Shown here: positions 5,182 through 16,178 of the stretch, piece by piece
Numbering within the stretch: position 1 is the stretch's first letter
Layout: the number at the start of each line of letters is the position of its first letter
Source: an uncultured Mycoplasma sp.
Lineage (GTDB): Bacteria; Bacillota_I; Bacilli_A; Mycoplasmatales; Metamycoplasmataceae
Length of the DNA stretch: 19,822 nucleotides
Direction of reading: 5' to 3'
Assembly: GCA_949284615.1 (NCBI GenBank)
Contig: CASDWL010000060.1
Span: forward strand, 1-19,822
The notes under the pieces: model-generated
Told to the model about the DNA's origin: nothing
The model's database searches: none
What the model saw: the letters and a program-made list of their open reading frames with translations, nothing else
Program-made: the position numbers and the translations under genes

Positions 5182-5610
5182 TTAAAAAGTGATTTCTCAA
5201 ATCAAATTATTATTAGGAAGTCTATATGGACATTGTTTATTAATATTTGAGTTGTTTATATTAACAACTTGAAATTCTTTTAATTTAATGACTAATTTGT
5301 ATGGTTGATTATTAGAATTTAACTCAAATGAAATTTGTTCAAATCAATTATCGCCCATAGCTTGAACTGTATAGCGATCAAATTCAAATGTTGTACTAGT
5401 TTTAACAATTTTTTCTAATTTGGTTATAGAAATCATTTCATTATTAAAAGTTTCATAATCTGCAGATTCTTTTTTGATCTTATCTATATCAAATGATCAA
5501 GACATTGTTTTAAAATCACTTGAGGTAGTCCCACAAGAGATAGTAAATGAAACAAAGAAAAGATTAGAAAATATTAAACTACTATTCAATAATATTTTTT
5601 TAATTTTCAT
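5182..5610 (-). CDS. Small putative lipoprotein
   Basis: This encodes a 142-aa protein of unknown function; two in-frame TGA (Trp) codons break the frame under the standard code. It begins MKIKKILLN, a basic n-region, followed by a hydrophobic stretch rich in Phe, Leu, Ile and Ser that ends in the lipobox TISC followed by Gly. The lipidated residue is about Cys26. The mature part is short (about 115 aa) and has alternating strands (FEQISFEL, YKLVIKL) that suggest a beta-rich domain. No family is recognised. It lies six bases after rplS and 20 bases before tmcAL on the same strand, so it is probably co-transcribed with the ribosomal genes, an odd place for a surface protein. There is no Shine-Dalgarno sequence before its ATG. 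Confidence 0.82.
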
Positions 5611-10197: not shown

Positions 10198-10231
10198 ATT
10201 TTCTCCTTCAAATTACACAATCTTTATATTT

Positions 10232-10237
10232 ATTATA
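10232..10237 (-). promoter_or_regulatory. Putative -10 box for gpmI
   Basis: TATAAT on the minus strand lies 34 bases before the gpmI ATG, leaving room for a leader of about 28 bases that carries the AAGGAG ribosome-binding site. The -35 region is weak, as is common in mycoplasmas. Confidence 0.45.
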
Positions 10238-10326
10238 TATTGTAGCAACTTGTTTTAAATAATAAATCCACTTTTCAATTGTTTTACTTAATTTTTTTTA
10301 AAAATATCATTTCAAATATAGTAATT

Positions 10327-10350
10327 AATATAAATTTAATAATTTATATT
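10327..10350. repeat. A/T-only 10-bp inverted repeat in the gpmI-mraZ divergent region
   Basis: AATATAAATT (10327-10336) and its exact reverse complement AATTTATATT (10341-10350) flank a 4-base centre. It lies about 90 bases from the gpmI promoter and about 80 from the mraZ promoter. It could be an operator or simply arise by chance from the base composition. The rest of the 267-base gap (10198-10464) holds only the two promoters, the gpmI ribosome-binding site and the MraZ box. Confidence 0.35.
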
Positions 10351-10427
10351 TATAAAAAAAGTATGTTTTTACCAATATTTTTTATTTGAAAATCAAAAAA
10401 AATTAAACAATATTTTTGCTAATTATG

Positions 10428-10433
10428 TATAAT
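10428..10433 (+). promoter_or_regulatory. Putative -10 box for the mraZ division operon
   Basis: TATAAT (context TGTATAATTTTGGG) puts the transcription start near 10440, inside the MraZ repeat array that follows directly. A recognisable -35 box is missing (AAACAA-like sequence at the expected place), which would fit a promoter that depends on an activator. Confidence 0.55.
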
Positions 10434-10435
10434 TT

Positions 10436-10460
10436 TGGGTGATAGTGGTAGAAAGTGGGT
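10436..10460 (+). promoter_or_regulatory. MraZ box: three 10-bp-spaced repeats before mraZ
   Basis: Three repeats TGGGT (10436-10440), TGGTA (10446-10450) and TGGGT (10456-10460) are separated by exactly five bases each (GATAG, GAAAG). This is the TGGGN-N5 layout known for MraZ operators in walled bacteria. It also contains the AAAGTGG-type element reported for mollicute MraZ at 10452-10458. The 10-bp period places all repeats on one face of the helix, as expected for the ring-shaped MraZ oligomer. The last repeat ends four bases before the mraZ ATG, so the array fills the 5' leader. No separate Shine-Dalgarno sequence exists. Confidence 0.85.
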
Positions 10461-10464
10461 GAAA

Positions 10465-10908
10465 ATGTTTATAGGTCAATTTGAACGTAATATTGATTCT
10501 AAAAATAGAGTTGTATTACCTCCAAGTTTTAAAAATGACTTAGGAAATATTTTCTATCTTACTATTTCCTCTAAAGAAAGATTAGAAATTAGAAATGTTC
10601 AAGAATTTGAGAATTTTGTGGATAAAATTGATCAAAATAATCAATTAGATCCTCAAATTCAACAATATAAAAGATTTATCCTTTCTAAGACAATAAAAGT
10701 AGAAACAGATAAATTAGGTCGTTTCTTAATTCCTGAAAATTTTTTAAAGGCTATCGCTATCAAAAAAACAATTTCATTTGTAGGTATGGGAAGAATTATA
10801 GAAATATGAGCTTCTGAGAACTTGGAAATGAAATTAAATGAGTTGGAAAATGATACGACTATTGATGATTTAGCTGCAGAAATGCTTAAAAAAGGATATA
10901 AGTTATAA
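10465..10908 (+). CDS. mraZ: Transcriptional regulator MraZ
   Basis: MraZ (147 aa, normal length) is a DNA-binding regulator of its own division operon. It has two copies of a swapped-hairpin AbrB-like domain. The first carries DSKNRVVLPPSF near residue 14 and the second DKLGRFLIPENF near residue 85. These DxxxR and GR..IP signatures are the DNA-contacting parts. A TGA Trp codon at 10807-10809 must be read through to reach the full length. The ATG at 10465 gives the canonical start MFIGQFERN; the frame is open upstream to a TTG at 10435, but that stretch is the operator array and not family sequence. Its stop overlaps the rsmH start by one base (TAATG), implying coupled translation. Confidence 0.96.
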
Positions 10909-11798
10909 TGCATATTCCTGTTATGTTAGATGAAGTAATTAATTCATTAAACATAAAACCAGATGGAATATATGTGGATTTAACTCTTGGAAGAGCAGGA
11001 CATTCTGAAGCTATATTAAAAAATATCAAAAACGGTAAATTAATAGCATTTGATAAAGACAAAATTGCTATTGAGGAATCTCAGGGCCGTCTTGTTAAAG
11101 TTAATAATCATTTCAAATTAATTCATTCAGATTTTAAAAATTTTAAAGATGAATTAAATAAATTAGGAATAAAGAAAGTTGATGGTATTATTGCAGATTT
11201 AGGGGTTTCATCACCTCAACTCGACAATCAAGATCGTGGATTTTCTTACAATAAAGATGGTTATTTAGACATGAGAATGAATCAAGACCAATCGTTAAAA
11301 GCTTGAGATATTGTCAATAATTGAAAAGAAGAAGAAATAATAAATATTTTAATCAATAATGCAGATGTAAAATTCCCTAAAAGAATTGCGAATGCAATTG
11401 TGAAAAATAGACCAATAAATTCTACTTTTGAATTAGTTGAAATTGTTAAAAGTTGTTTACCAGCGAAAATTATAAGGCAAAAAAATCCAGCAAAAACTGT
11501 GTTTCAAGCCATAAGAATTGCTGTTAATAATGAATTAGAATCTCTTGAAATCATTCTTAAAGATTCAATAGACTTATTAAATCATGATGGAGTGATAGCA
11601 ATAATAACTTTTCACTCTATTGAAGATAGAATTGTAAAAAATTATTTTGGAAATTTAATCAAAGATAAACATGATCCAAAAATTCCAATTCAGGAGACTA
11701 AAAAATATACTGTTAAAGTTATGTATCCAAAAAATGAAGAAATTCTTATAAACAGAAGATCAAAAAGTGCAAAATTAAGAATTTTGAAAAAAATCTAA
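10908..11798 (+). CDS. rsmH: 16S rRNA (cytosine-1402-N4)-methyltransferase RsmH
   Basis: RsmH (formerly MraW, 296 aa) methylates N4 of C1402 in the 16S rRNA decoding centre with S-adenosylmethionine. The start HIPVMLDEVI is canonical. The SAM-binding loop reads DLTLGRAGHSEAIL where most homologues have DGTLGxGGHS. IIADLGVSSPQLDNQDRGFSY follows, with LDMRMNQ, then FQAIRIAVNNELESL and IITFHSIEDRIVK in the C-terminal half. Two TGA Trp codons lie close together (11304 and 11322) and hide the gene from standard-code calling. It begins within the mraZ stop codon and is followed by a 35-base gap with a good ribosome-binding site for the next gene. Confidence 0.96.
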
Positions 11799-11833
11799 AT
11801 TAAACACTTGTAAATAAAACAAAAGGATAAATT

Positions 11834-13141
11834 ATGAATAAAAATATTATGGTAAATGCTTATATAAGTCAAAATAATATAAAAATTATTGCAACTGCAA
11901 GGCACAATGATCATATTATTAATATTCATGAAGAGTCGATATCTGAATACAATGATAATAACAATTCAAAAAATAAGAATAACATCAAGTGTTCTATCAA
12001 AAGAATTGTTGAAACAATTGAAAGTAAAATATCTAAAAAAATAAAATCAATTGGTATCATTTTTGATGATTTTATGAAATCTTCTGAATTATTTGAATTT
12101 TCTACAAAAATTATTGAAGAAAAAATTGAATGCAATGATAAAAAATTTTTAAATATTGATGATTATGAATTAATTATTAATAAAAATAAACATGGTGCAT
12201 CTTTAAAAAATAATGAAGAAGTATTAATATCTATTATTCCATTCAAATTCTTTTATGTAGAAAATGATCAAATTATTGAAAAAGAATCTAATCAGTTTCC
12301 TTTTAATAAAAAAGTTAAAAAGTTAAGAATTTTATTTACAACTAGATATATGGATAAAAAATGTTATCAAAGAATTATAGATTTGTTTGATTTGATATCT
12401 AATGTAAAAATTAAAGAAATTGCATTGGAATCTCAGATTGCAGTTTATGATAATAATTTAATTAATACAAATAATGATTTTGTTGATAAATTAAGTTATG
12501 GAATTGCTATCAAAAAAAACAAAACAATGTTGATAACAAGTATTAACAACATAGTAATTAAAACTAATAAGTTAGATTATTCATTTTCAAATCTAATTGA
12601 TAAAATTGCTAATGATTTTAACATTTCTAATTATGAAGCAAAAAAATTGCTTGATTGTTATGGAGACTTGGACAATAATAACAGTAACAGAAATATTTAT
12701 TTTTCTCACTCAATAAAAAAAGATATTTCTAAAAGTATTACTAAATCAAATATTTCTGATGTAATAAAATCATTTCTAAAATCAATTTGCATTCAAGCAA
12801 ATAAAATTATGACAGAATCAAAGATCAACAATAATTGGATTAACAATAGAATTGAATTAAAATTCATTGGATATTTATCTAAAGATAATAACATTAAACA
12901 ATATTGCTCTAAATATTTTGATAACAATAAAATAAAAATTAATATGGTTAATAATAATGAATCAATATATGAATGAAATAATTCATATGTATATTCAAAA
13001 AATTTTCGATTTTACATAGATACTTTAAATAATCTAAAAACAGATAATATTTATTACAATACAAATTATAATTATTATCCTAAAAATAGTTTATTTGTTG
13101 AAGGATCTCCAGTAAAAAATATTAGTGCTTCTACAATATAG
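11834..13141 (+). CDS. Degenerate FtsA-like protein in the ftsA position
   Basis: This encodes a 435-aa protein, about FtsA length, between rsmH and ftsZ where ftsA lies in other bacteria. The order of parts parallels FtsA: an N-terminal strand pair (residues 6-19), a helix-strand piece ending KSIGIIFDD (71-79), the 1C-to-2 transition ISIIPFKFF (132-140), a KLRILFTT strand (163-170), VKIKEIALESQIAVYDN (191-207) matching the FtsA LEPLASAEA region, and YEAKKLLDCYGDLD (267-280) matching AEKLK...YG. The three actin-fold nucleotide motifs are unrecognisable: DIGSxK reads NAYISQNN, DIGGGTTD reads YGIAIKKNKT and the late GG motif reads IGYLSKD. ATP binding is doubtful. No C-terminal amphipathic helix is obvious. 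One TGA Trp codon lies at 12974. A good AAAGGA ribosome-binding site is present. The FtsA link is inference from position and pattern. Confidence 0.65.
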
Positions 13142-13147
13142 AAAGGA
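13142..13147 (+). promoter_or_regulatory. Distant Shine-Dalgarno sequence before ftsZ
   Basis: AAAGGA directly follows the TAG stop of the FtsA-like gene but lies 15 bases from the ftsZ ATG at 13163, longer than the usual 5-10. A stop codon at 13148-13150 in the ftsZ frame rules out a further-upstream start, so the ATG is secure and weak translation is possible. Confidence 0.45.
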
Positions 13148-13162
13148 TAAAATAATTATTTA

Positions 13163-14314
13163 ATGAATATAGCTGTTGTTGGTATAGGTGGAACAGGATG
13201 TAAAATTGTAGATATTGTCAAAAATGATAATACTATTTTAAATCCTAATATAAATTTTATTTATATTGACAATAATAAAAATTCATTAGAAAATTATGAT
13301 CATAATTCATCAATTCTATTAAATTGTAATGAAGATATTAATGAACAAAACTTTGATGATGCACATATAGTAAATAATGCTATAAGAGAATCATTAGAAT
13401 TGATCAAAAATAATTTTTCTAATATTGATGTTTTGATTTTATGTTCAGGATTTGGTGGAAAGACTGGAACTTTAGCGTTACCGTTTATTGCAAAAATTTC
13501 TAAAGAAATGGGCATTCTAACTATTGCAGTAGTTACTTCTCCATTTTCTTATGAAGGAATAGTAAAAGAAGTTAATGCTTTAGCAGGTTTAAATAAATTA
13601 AAAGAAAATATTGATGTATTAATCCCTATTTCTAATAACAGAATTTTAAACAATTATCCAGATATTGCAGCTAATGACATATTCAAATTAATTAATAAAT
13701 TGTTAAAAAATACTTTAATTTATTTTATTAACTTATTTTCAGACAATCTAGATTTTAAAGTTTCTTGAAGTGAAGTTTTAGATTGCTTAAGAAACAAAAA
13801 AGAATCATATATAGGTTTTGGTTCAGGAATAGGTAAAAATAAAATAATTAGAGCTGTAAACCAAGTTACTAATTCCAAGATTATTGATACTGAATTTTAT
13901 GATTCAAAAAATATTGTTATGACAATAATTGCAGATCCTAGTTTTACTGCCAAACAAATAGAAGAAGTTGAAAAAGAAATAAGAAAAAAAATAAGAACTG
14001 ATCAACCAAATATATTATTATCTTTGAAAACTGATGAAAAATTAGTAAATGAAATTAGAATATCATTAATATCAACTTTTAATACTATTATTAGAAAAGA
14101 ATCTTTTAATAATAATCAAGATTTATTACAAAAATCTCAAGAGATATTATTAAAAATTGGAAATACATTAGAAAATGAAATGAATGGTTATATTACAAAT
14201 GAAATTGACCTATCTAATGAAAATGATTCTATTGAAAACAACAATCTAGATGACAATCTTATTGTAAGTGAAGGAAACAAAGATGAAGATGACATTCCAT
14301 TTTTTTTAAAATAA
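13163..14314 (+). CDS. ftsZ: Divergent cell division protein FtsZ
   Basis: FtsZ (383 aa) is the tubulin-like protein that normally forms the GTP-driven division ring. Family blocks in order: IAVVGIGGTGCKIVD (residues 3-17; usual GGGG-N), LILCSGFGGKTGTLALPFIAK (91-111), GILTIAVVTSPFSYEG (117-132), LKENIDVLIPISNNRIL (146-162) and SDNLDFKVS (193-201). The tubulin signature GGGTGTG reads GGKTGTL, with Lys100 in the phosphate loop. In the T7 synergy loop NLDFADV, the first Asp is kept (Asp197) but the second is replaced (FKVS). An acidic linker leads to a C-terminal peptide DDIPFFLK like the FtsZ tail that binds FtsA/SepF. One TGA Trp codon lies at 13766-13768. It is the last gene of the mraZ operon, before a terminator. 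Confidence 0.9.
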
Positions 14315-14381
14315 ATATAATTGATGTTTCGAAAATTTAATTGTTTTAATAAAAATTTTGTCTTCAGAATTCTTAGTATCT

Positions 14382-14408
14382 AAAACCTAGCAAATGCTAG
14401 GTTTTTTT
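14382..14408. terminator. Bidirectional intrinsic terminator between ftsZ and rpoD
   Basis: An inverted repeat with the core AACCTAGC / GCTAGGTT around an AAAT loop (14384-14391 and 14396-14403) is preceded by A and followed by seven T (14402-14408). It can end both the + strand mraZ-ftsZ transcript and the - strand greA-glyS-dnaG-rpoD transcript. The stretch 14315-14381 between ftsZ and the hairpin shows nothing else. Confidence 0.88.
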
Positions 14409-14420
14409 ATATTTATTTAA

Positions 14421-16178
14421 TTAATTTTCATATTTATAAAATTCTTTTAATTTTTTAATTTTTTGAGGTTGTTTTAATTTTCTTAAAATTTTACCTTCTA
14501 ATTGTCTAATTTTCTCTTTACTTGTTCCTCGATCACGAGCAATTTCTTCTAATGAATGTACTCTAATTGTTTCACCTTTTTCATTTGTTCCAAAACCAAA
14601 TCTCATTTTTATTATATATTTTTCTTCTTCTGTTAAAGCATCATTCATAAGTTCATTTAAAATGTTAGACAATTGTTCTTGAGCTGCATAATCTACTGGA
14701 TTTATAACATTTTTGTCATTAATAAAATCACTAATTGATGAATCTTCACCCTTTCCTATAGTTTTATCTAAAGATATTGGATCATTATTAATTCTTCTAA
14801 TATATCTAACTTTTTCTGCAGTAAAATCTCCACCATATCTTTCTGCAATTTGTTCATCTGTAGGTGTTGTTCCTAATTCTTGTTGTAATTCTCTTCTAAT
14901 TTTAACTATTTTATTTATAGTTTCTACCATATGAACAGGCACCCTAATAGTTCTTGCTTGATCAGCAACAGCTCTAGTGATTGCTTGTCTAATCCATCAT
15001 GTAGCATATGTTGAGAATTTAAATCCTTTTCTTCAATCATACTTTTGAACGGCTTTCATGATACCTGAATTACCTTCAGAAATTAAATCAATAAAAGATA
15101 GACCTCTATTTTTATATTTTTTAGCATTATTAATAACAAGCCTTAAATTTCTTTTTATTAATTCATCTTTAGCTTTTTTTCCTTTTCTTGTATTATGTTC
15201 TGCTTCTTTTGCTAGTTTTAATTCTTCTTCAGCAGAAAGTAAATTTCCATATTTACCTATTCATCTCATATATCATTTAACAATATCATTTGTTTCTGAT
15301 AGTTTATTTACTAAATCTGCAGATTGAATTTTTCTTTCTTCTTTTTTATTAATAAAAGCTATATCTTCATTTGCATAATCTTCAAAGATAAATTCATTTT
15401 GATCAGACTCTTCTTCTTCATCATCAAAAATTTCTTCATCAAGATCATTATCATAATAGTAATAAGATTCATCACCGCTATCAAAATCATCATCACTTAT
15501 TTTTTTATCATCTTGAACTAAATCATTAATATCTGTAAAATCATTTTCATCTGTATATTCATCCATGAATTCATTAGTATCAGTATCAAGTTGTTTTTTT
15601 GATGATAATTCTTTATAAATTTGTTTTTCATCTACAAATTCCCCAAGTTCACTTTCAATTTCATCACTTATTATCTGTTTTGATATTAAAATATTAAATA
15701 TTTCATCAACTTCTTCTGAAATATCTATTTTCTTTTTCTCAAATAATTTCATTACTTCATCTTGAGTTAAAGATTTTTTATTTTTATCTTTTTTTTGTTT
15801 GTTTTTTAATTCTTTGTTAACAAGGTTAACAATTAAAGATATATTTTCATCTTCAATATCATTAAAATCTTTTTCGATTGTTTCATCAAAACTATCATAA
15901 AAATCTAATTCATCATTTGAACTTTTGGTTTTTGATTTATTTTTTTTATCACTTATAGAGTTATTTATTTTTTTTGCAATTTTTTCTTCTTTTTTATTTG
16001 TTTCTTTTTTCTTAGGAGCTTTTTTAGTTTCTTTTTCTTTTATTTTTAAATCTTTTTCTTTTGATTCTTTTGAGATTTTAGTAGAATTCTTTCTAGTACT
16101 TAAAGATTCTTTTTTATCTTTAGCAATAGAAGAATTTGAGATTTTTTTATTATTTTTTACTTTGTTTTTTTTAGTCAT
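14421..16178 (-). CDS. rpoD: RNA polymerase primary sigma factor (RpoD/SigA)
   Basis: This sigma-70 factor (585 aa) directs core RNA polymerase to housekeeping promoters. Region 1.2 is [18 protein letters not shown] (near 302). Region 2 has [24 protein letters not shown] and the -10-binding [17 protein letters not shown] (about 385-400, Trp from TGA and TGG). Region 3 starts [12 protein letters not shown]. Region 4, which binds the -35 box, has [11 protein letters not shown] and the helix-turn-helix [22 protein letters not shown]. Ahead of these are about 300 residues: a Lys/Ser-rich tail (1-85), a likely region 1.1 (about 113-180, [18 protein letters not shown]) and a very acidic stretch (180-280). 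Typical firmicute SigA is near 370 aa. It lies nine bases after dnaG, with ribosome-binding site AAAGGAT. Merged across TGA Trp codons; the middle piece is essential. Confidence 0.96.

Follow-up and report, generated by a model that had tools for sequence, protein, structure and literature searches.

A mycoplasma clade in which FtsZ retains its C-terminal tail and residues of the GTP switch are replaced

The ftsZ gene studied here closes a division gene cluster of an uncultured Mycoplasma sp. The window, the whole 19,822-nucleotide stretch of DNA that was analysed, carries mraZ, rsmH, an FtsA-like gene and ftsZ in this order on the forward strand. The stretch 5' of mraZ (10404..10459, +) contains promoter-like hexamers (10404-10433) and, after them, MraZ-box-like GTGGG repeats (10435-10459); these are consensus matches only, with promoter-like sites numbering 50 in the region against 43.6 expected and the box pattern, built on what we take to be the MraZ-box motif, occurring three times in the window, once inside ftsZ, against 0.47 expected. 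The first gene, mraZ (10465..10908, +; Pfam MraZ, 72.5 bits), has an ATG picked by eye at 10465 in an ORF that runs from 10435. It is followed by a gene which we take from its position in the cluster to be rsmH (mraW; 10908..11798, +), by the FtsA-like gene (11834..13141, +) and by ftsZ (13163..14314, +), 3' of which lies the sole terminator-like hairpin in 10200-14500 (14382..14405; a consensus match, 0.3 expected). Scanning the window for Rfam families and tRNA genes gave no match. The rsmH, FtsA-like and ftsZ genes stand together in all eight other genomes of the genus whose fetched region covers the locus (G134 is partial, and G131 and G132 have no FtsZ match), and rsmH, matched in the same 8/8, served as the rate yardstick. 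Elsewhere in the window, an RpoD-like ORF (14421-16178, -) has a charged, low-complexity N-terminal extension of about 280 residues as judged by eye, and two lipoprotein-like ORFs (2025-2825, +; 5182-5610, -) have no convincing Pfam or NCBIfam match.

Descent, fold and position identify the last gene product as FtsZ. Under code 4 the gene is a single open frame of 383 codons with one TGA codon, Trp202, bearing out the intact frame of the original prediction. Pfam finds both Tubulin (88.1 bits) and FtsZ_C (35.3 bits), the AlphaFold2 model (pLDDT 80.7, pTM 0.76) has the tubulin/FtsZ fold, and the best 50 of 1,873 Foldseek matches are all FtsZ entries, with a best E of 1.4e-30 and TM values normalised by target of up to 0.92. 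Orthology and gene order as in the dcw cluster are found by tree and synteny. The NCBIfam ftsZ equivalog score of 159.6 bits lies below the cut-off of 295.2 bits, a weak criterion because just 63 of 135 family genomes pass it. The model also predicts a C-terminal helix at residues 317-341, SQEILLKIGNTLENEM (14111..14185, +), whose IGNTLE sequence occurs in the canonical sister proteins P0046 and P0048 and is absent from G126, G127 and G130. This FtsZ is the sole FtsZ/tubulin match in its own genome (G000; 629,290 bases, 90.34% complete), where no second, canonical FtsZ was found; three relatives (G124, G125 and G133) likewise have one match apiece, although at 84-96% completeness of these four assemblies a single match is not proof that a second copy is lacking. 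One relative, P0025, is annotated by its source as 'hypothetical protein [Mycoplasma sp.]'. We assume a wall-less host because its genome groups with mollicute-like genomes and uses code 4.

Judged by predicted fold and profile comparison, the ORF directly upstream of ftsZ is a divergent FtsA. Its 435-residue product gives a weak model (pLDDT 64.7, pTM 0.50, TM of about 0.5), in Foldseek searches with which ranks 1-19 among the best 50 are FtsA entries (best E 7.6e-22): 16 are titled FtsA and three are chains of 3wt0, which bears no title beyond 'Cell Division Protein' and which we take to be FtsA. HMM-HMM comparison of its profile with one built from 20 FtsA sequences gives a probability of 98.2% over 382 columns, so that fold and profile both point to FtsA, the fold by a low-confidence model. 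Direct sequence models see little of this: Pfam FtsA has no match in G000 and weak matches below its cut-off in 3 of 12 genus genomes, the NCBIfam ftsA model has no G000 match at 1e-5, the NCBIfam MAG3720 family scores 48.4 bits (cut-off 70), and a PDB sequence search with the profile reaches FtsA only at E 0.74. The FtsA ATP-binding motifs are missing, with ISQNN in place of DIGSS and a second phosphate motif, IAIKKNKTM, devoid of glycines. The gene at this position is already called ftsA in an M. pneumoniae paper (PMC7737663) and is listed as uncharacterised in an M. genitalium paper (PMC8475190), both, like the other papers given here by PMC number, cited from excerpts. A search for SepF in 12 genomes of the genus gave no match.

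This FtsZ retains much of the nucleotide pocket but is altered in several of its loops. In the 144-row alignment, the T1 loop reads GIGGTGCKIV (residues 7-16; 13181..13210, +), with Lys14 in place of N24 (E. coli numbering), and the T4 G-box reads SGFGGKTGTLA (residues 95-105; 13445..13477, +). The GGTGCK (residues 9-14) and GGKTGTL (residues 98-104) of the original prediction are therefore present as reported, the latter where the canonical G-box has GGGTGTG, and so are its PFxxEG and SNNR blocks, as PFSYEG and SNNR. The T2 loop is DNNKN (residues 36-40; 13268..13282, +), with Asn38 for D45 and Asn40 for Q47, and the site of the T3 gamma-phosphate loop is NEQNFDD (residues 60-66; 13340..13360, +) in place of the canonical GLGAGAN. 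T5 reads PFSYEGIVK (residues 127-135; 13541..13567, +); E138 is kept and R142 is replaced by Lys135. The G-box lysine at G107 is peculiar to this protein, found in 1 of 44 rows of its clade against Ile in 22 of 44, and so is not the key feature.

The T7 loop had to be realigned. It most likely lies at K199-V-S-W-S-E204 (13757..13774, +), with the TGA codon for Trp202 inside it (13766-13768, +), so that N207 is Lys, D209 is most likely Ser201 and D212 most likely Glu204. The reading 'NLDFKVS instead of NLDFADV' had been anchored on N195-L-D-F198 (13745..13756, +), most likely a false anchor: it aligns a look-alike, off by four residues, and close relatives read KQDF or NQDF at this site. SWSEV is the best match to DFADV. 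All four inspected alignments from a phmmer search against solved FtsZs (49 chains matched) put KVSWSE on NxDFAD, the 144-row MAFFT alignment places K199-V-S-W-S-E204 on N207-x-D209-F-A-D212, and HMM-HMM alignment of G000 and three close relatives with 15 canonical FtsZs puts SWSEV on DFADV. BLASTP against canonical FtsZs agrees in 10 of 15 pairs; the other five align NLDF with NLDF through a four-residue gap, setting D197 on D209. Intermediate loops in relatives (INVSKSDL in G124, INISTNDL in G125/P0028 and INLSIIDI in P0029) support the SWSEV placement. By sequence and HMM-HMM alignment an acidic residue, Glu204, thus most likely occupies the position of the second T7 Asp, whose loss had been proposed. 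What survives of that proposal is that one catalytic Asp is gone, most likely the first, and one is gone whichever alignment is chosen. KVSWSE does not fit the NxDxxD pattern of the synergy loop.

These replacements are shared by a whole clade. Among the best 120 of 211 matches in a protein search, relatives at 36-99% identity are followed by canonical FtsZ at about 30%. We counted 44 clade rows including this protein, many of them near-copies and 23 of them (P0001, P0003-P0024) forming a close subclade; the fragments P0002, P0026, P0027 and P0051-P0053 were left out and P0050 was kept apart. In E. coli numbering, D209 is lost in 44/44 rows (Ser 39, Thr 3, Asn 2), R142 is Lys in 44/44, Q47 and the T3 motif GAGA are each kept in 0/44, and D45 is lost in 42/44 (Asn 41, His 1) and kept as Asp in 2. 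N207 is kept in 18/44, and the D212 position holds Glu in 24, Asp in 17, Gln in 2 and Asn in 1. Many residues that contact the base, ribose and phosphates stay across the 44 rows. The C-terminal conserved peptide, DDIPFFLK in this protein (residues 376-383; 14288..14311, +) and comparable to E. coli DIPAFLRK, is identical in 43/44 rows and EDIPFFLK in the other. DDIPFFLK is also found in 4/4 sister canonical rows and DEIPFFLK in 5/5 canonical rows of the genus, and five of the six fragments outside the count likewise end in DDIPFFLK, the sixth, P0002, being out of frame there.

A column analysis indicates which parts of the protein were lost. We scored 16 thinned clade members at the 63 columns that hardly vary among 23 canonical FtsZs. 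At least 15 of the 16 retain 18 of these columns, including G17, G19, G22, G103, G105 and G106 as well as G109, P134, F135, E138, G139 and N165; F182 and N186 are mostly retained, and 9/16 have N207 and D212. By contrast, 27 of the 63 are lost in at least half of the 16, including D45, Q47, G67, G69-A72, R142 and L208-A211. Loss affects 9 of 11 switch columns and 18 of the remaining 52 conserved ones (Fisher p 0.006), for a switch set drawn up after the table had been seen, with PMC8936486 as one of its sources. The split is not clean, G20, N24, G107 and half of G111 being lost too. In a tree of 61 of the 144 rows, made by a quick method with SH-aLRT support only, 18 clade rows form one group (support 100), joined at 100 to a group of P0046-P0049 and P0050 (94). 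The sisters P0046-P0049 have full catalytic motifs and the same DDIPFFLK tail. P0050, on a long branch among them, has Asn at both T7 Asp positions, which may represent a separate loss.

To place the clade, we surveyed FtsZ across the family. An FtsZ match is present in 116 of 135 genomes, and T7 loops were counted in 115 of them after dropping the partial G134 and the extra copies of G053. Both T7 Asp are kept in 94, both are lost in 14, only D209 in two and only D212 in five. Loss common to the whole clade, set against both Asp kept in 94/115 genomes, points to more than chance. The 21 genomes with a T7 loss comprise 4/9 of genus g1, 15/15 of g5 and 2/49 of g12. In all 15 g5 genomes ftsZ is preceded by an ORF with an RsmH-like end pattern, so that no FtsA-like gene lies between, and FtsZ is without the IPFFLK tail. 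At g5 loci such as L041-L046 and L051, an adjoining RsmH-like ORF, a missing tail and T7 Asp loss occur together, apparently as parallel erosion; canonical sisters separate the g1 clade from g5 on the tree, implying at least two losses if lost residues are never regained. The link between tail and FtsA does not amount to a family-wide rule. In 21 g7 and 42 g12 genomes a different ORF precedes ftsZ, yet a simple pattern finds no such tail, and G025, G029 (g7) and G084 (g12) combine an RsmH-like ORF upstream with an intact T7 loop.

Judged by the catalytic features examined, all read from sequence, the protein falls short of a functional FtsZ GTPase. The original prediction of slow or absent GTPase activity, or of a non-polymerising role, remains reasonable because D209, N207, D45, Q47, R142 and the T3 loop are changed; the ground it gave, the second T7 Asp, was wrong, Glu being present there. 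We suggest, at a probability of roughly 0.47, that this FtsZ has been retooled into a scaffold that holds a guanine nucleotide, does not cycle and is tied by its tail to the FtsA-like protein. The predicted fold is that of FtsZ, and the residues that would cradle base, ribose and phosphates are largely kept. Those expected to sense the gamma-phosphate (T3), to bridge subunits (D45 and Q47 in T2, here also N207 in T7) and to catalyse hydrolysis (D209, R142) are replaced. GTP or GDP may be held as a lasting cofactor, treadmilling would not occur and assemblies would be static or short at most. The tail, an FtsA-binding kind of end peptide kept almost letter for letter, would hold the FtsA-like protein encoded directly upstream, which changed pace together with FtsZ, and through it the membrane or division site. 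In walled bacteria, FtsZ treadmilling is powered by GTP hydrolysis and tied to septal wall synthesis. A wall-less cell makes no septal wall whose synthesis treadmilling could distribute, and hydrolysis could therefore become dispensable and the scaffold be kept. A broader version, in which the only FtsZ of the lineage and its FtsA-like partner form a pseudo-enzyme pair that builds the division site via the tail without any nucleotide cycle, seems to us rather unlikely.

The clade-wide switch loss, retained pocket residues, tail, fold, FtsA-like neighbour and evolutionary rates given below support the scaffold reading, as does g5, where from sequence neither an FtsA-like gene between rsmH and ftsZ nor the tail is present. 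Support by analogy comes from S. aureus, where D46A, R143Q, N208L, D210N and D213N each suppress assembly and Q48A and R143K leave assembly in place with about six-fold lower GTPase (PMC8936486, excerpt). The six positions of the interface mutants D46A, Q48A, R143K, N208L, D210N and D213N are all changed here, but as a natural combination of Asn, Asn, Lys, Lys, Ser and Glu rather than as single laboratory substitutions. Hydrolysis is also reduced by changes at the T7 position in E. coli, whose FtsZ is more permissive: D212A hydrolyses slowly and still forms filaments, and hydrolysis-deficient D212G, which may lend further support, is said by citation to constrict liposomes and to work in division (PMC4383033, excerpt), although it needed suppressors for complementation in another study (PMC5405962, excerpt). 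These E. coli mutants are unlike the clade in that one residue only is changed, with D209, T2, T3 and R142 intact. Against the scaffold reading stand the incomplete tail-to-FtsA link in g7, g12, G025, G029 and G084, the loss of G20 and N24, near the phosphates, in many rows and perhaps the lack of a clear amphipathic membrane helix at the FtsA-like C-terminus, whose maximal hydrophobic moment averages 0.21 over 14 rows of the clade, other groups having means of 0.16-0.33.

The main rival is slow decay, in which FtsZ is nearly dispensable, weak constraint has let the switch erode and the gene is being lost, as has happened in some mycoplasmas; we consider this somewhat unlikely. Evolutionary rates bear on both readings. 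NG86 omega of ftsZ is 0.36-0.50 in six clade pairs against 0.06-0.16 in five canonical pairs, about 2 to 8 times the canonical value, and that of the FtsA-like gene is 0.38-0.65 against 0.08-0.28; for rsmH it is 0.11-0.23 against 0.10-0.19. The ratio of FtsZ to rsmH distance is 2.65-2.91 in six clade pairs and 0.66-1.73 in ten canonical pairs. Constraint on FtsZ and the FtsA-like protein is thus relaxed, not gone, and the rsmH omega is not raised. The raised omega fits decay as well as the scaffold reading, and the FtsZ of P0002, 99% identical and on a 3,427-base contig, is 339 residues long with its end out of frame, either a sequencing error or a broken allele. According to excerpts of PMC8475190, M. 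genitalium can do without ftsZ, and M. mobile and Ureaplasma urealyticum lack the gene; 19 of the 135 family genomes have no FtsZ match. Decay is opposed by intact frames of 383-396 residues in 42 clade rows counted from the protein search, by omega below 1 even with dS near saturation in AT-rich codons, so that the true clade omega is probably lower, by a tail unchanged in 43/44 rows whereas g7 and most g12 FtsZs that keep the T7 residues lack it, and by erosion patterned by function, switch columns against others. The earlier claim of a maintained protein rather than a pseudogene is therefore carried by the intact frames, the omega values and the near-invariant tail, and qualified by the raised omega and by P0002.

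An enzyme compensated from within, in which Glu204, Ser201 and Lys135, or D197, rebuild a slow GTPase site and polymerisation persists, appears improbable. The D212 position is acidic in 41/44 clade rows (24 Glu, 17 Asp), Lys at R142 is also found in 18 of 47 g12 FtsZs with intact T7 Asp, R143K of S. aureus still assembles (PMC8936486, excerpt), and D197 falls on D209 in five of 15 BLASTP pairs; yet D45, Q47, T3 and D209 are gone together, D210N and D46A each suppress S. aureus assembly alone, and D197 is unconserved outside the immediate subclade. A use outside division, for example at the surface in adhesion, would accord with the reported contribution of FtsZ to cytoadhesion in M. bovis (PMC12706882, excerpt) and is very improbable with the tail conserved and ftsZ staying behind rsmH and the FtsA-like gene here and in 8/8 comparable genus genomes.

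Other FtsZ systems help to delimit the clade. Canonical mycoplasma FtsZs (P0046-P0049; G126-G130) share the IPFFLK tail and, in G126-G130, the gene order, but keep the NTD motif, the T3 loop, EGxxR and NLDFADL/V or NLDFSDL, all of which the clade lost. The g5 FtsZs resemble it in losing at least one T7 Asp in 15/15 genomes and keeping the FtsZ profile match, but stand apart on the tree, lack the tail and have the RsmH-like ORF directly upstream. Nitrosopumilus maritimus FtsZ likewise departs by nature from the canonical G-box and T7 loop and did not polymerise in yeast; T7 mutations are described there as disrupting polymerisation and not GTP binding. It differs as a distant archaeal protein, accompanied by Cdv division proteins, of which the authors think that it may not bind GTP (PMC3684127, excerpt). 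FtsZl1 and FtsZl2 belong to the FtsZ superfamily, and FtsZl1 seems to be without elements needed for filaments (PMC2875224, excerpt), but they are separate families, whereas the protein here is a direct FtsZ orthologue. Spiroplasma FtsZ keeps its GTP-binding and hydrolysis residues, is a slow GTPase and, with SepF, forms membrane-constricting ring-like structures in E. coli L-forms (PMC11987601, excerpt). Among the papers listed by the literature searches, mostly as titles and the beginnings of abstracts, none dealt with the clade or with T7 Asp loss in mycoplasma FtsZ. Natural variation here separates the GTP-holding half of the FtsZ pocket from the GTP-sensing half and hints that a cell may retain a division protein for a role other than its usual dynamic ring. 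One genus has both canonical and switch-less FtsZs with the same cluster, tail and FtsA-like neighbour, which makes the role of FtsZ without a wall directly testable: is hydrolysis then needed, or only anchoring and shape?

Two candidate markers of inactive FtsZ were rejected in the survey. A low FtsZ profile score alone does not denote a dead enzyme, since 14/14 divergent FtsZs from other families of the order keep both T7 Asp. Loss of R142 fails likewise: the residue is non-Arg in 23 of 47 g12 FtsZs with an intact T7 loop (18 Lys, 5 others) and in 5/5 such g6 FtsZs, none of them Lys. None of the named genome contigs that were scanned could be confirmed as a relative. Two g12 loci (L047 and L048 of G112 and G098) carry an FtsZ without the second T7 Asp, T3 and R142, with an ORF of FtsA length upstream. 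G053 of genus g9 has five FtsZ matches (L008, L049, L050), unusual for a mycoplasma; four are long and have the canonical T7 Asp residues, and one is a fragment at a contig end. In another family of the order, six genomes (G198, G202, G207, G217, G224, G232) have second, divergent FtsZ copies (L161-L166) with intact T7 Asp and no clear C-terminal peptide. Finally, L155 and L160 (G203, G229) contain FtsZ frames of 612-638 residues, far longer than the FtsZ domain and with a basic tail end.
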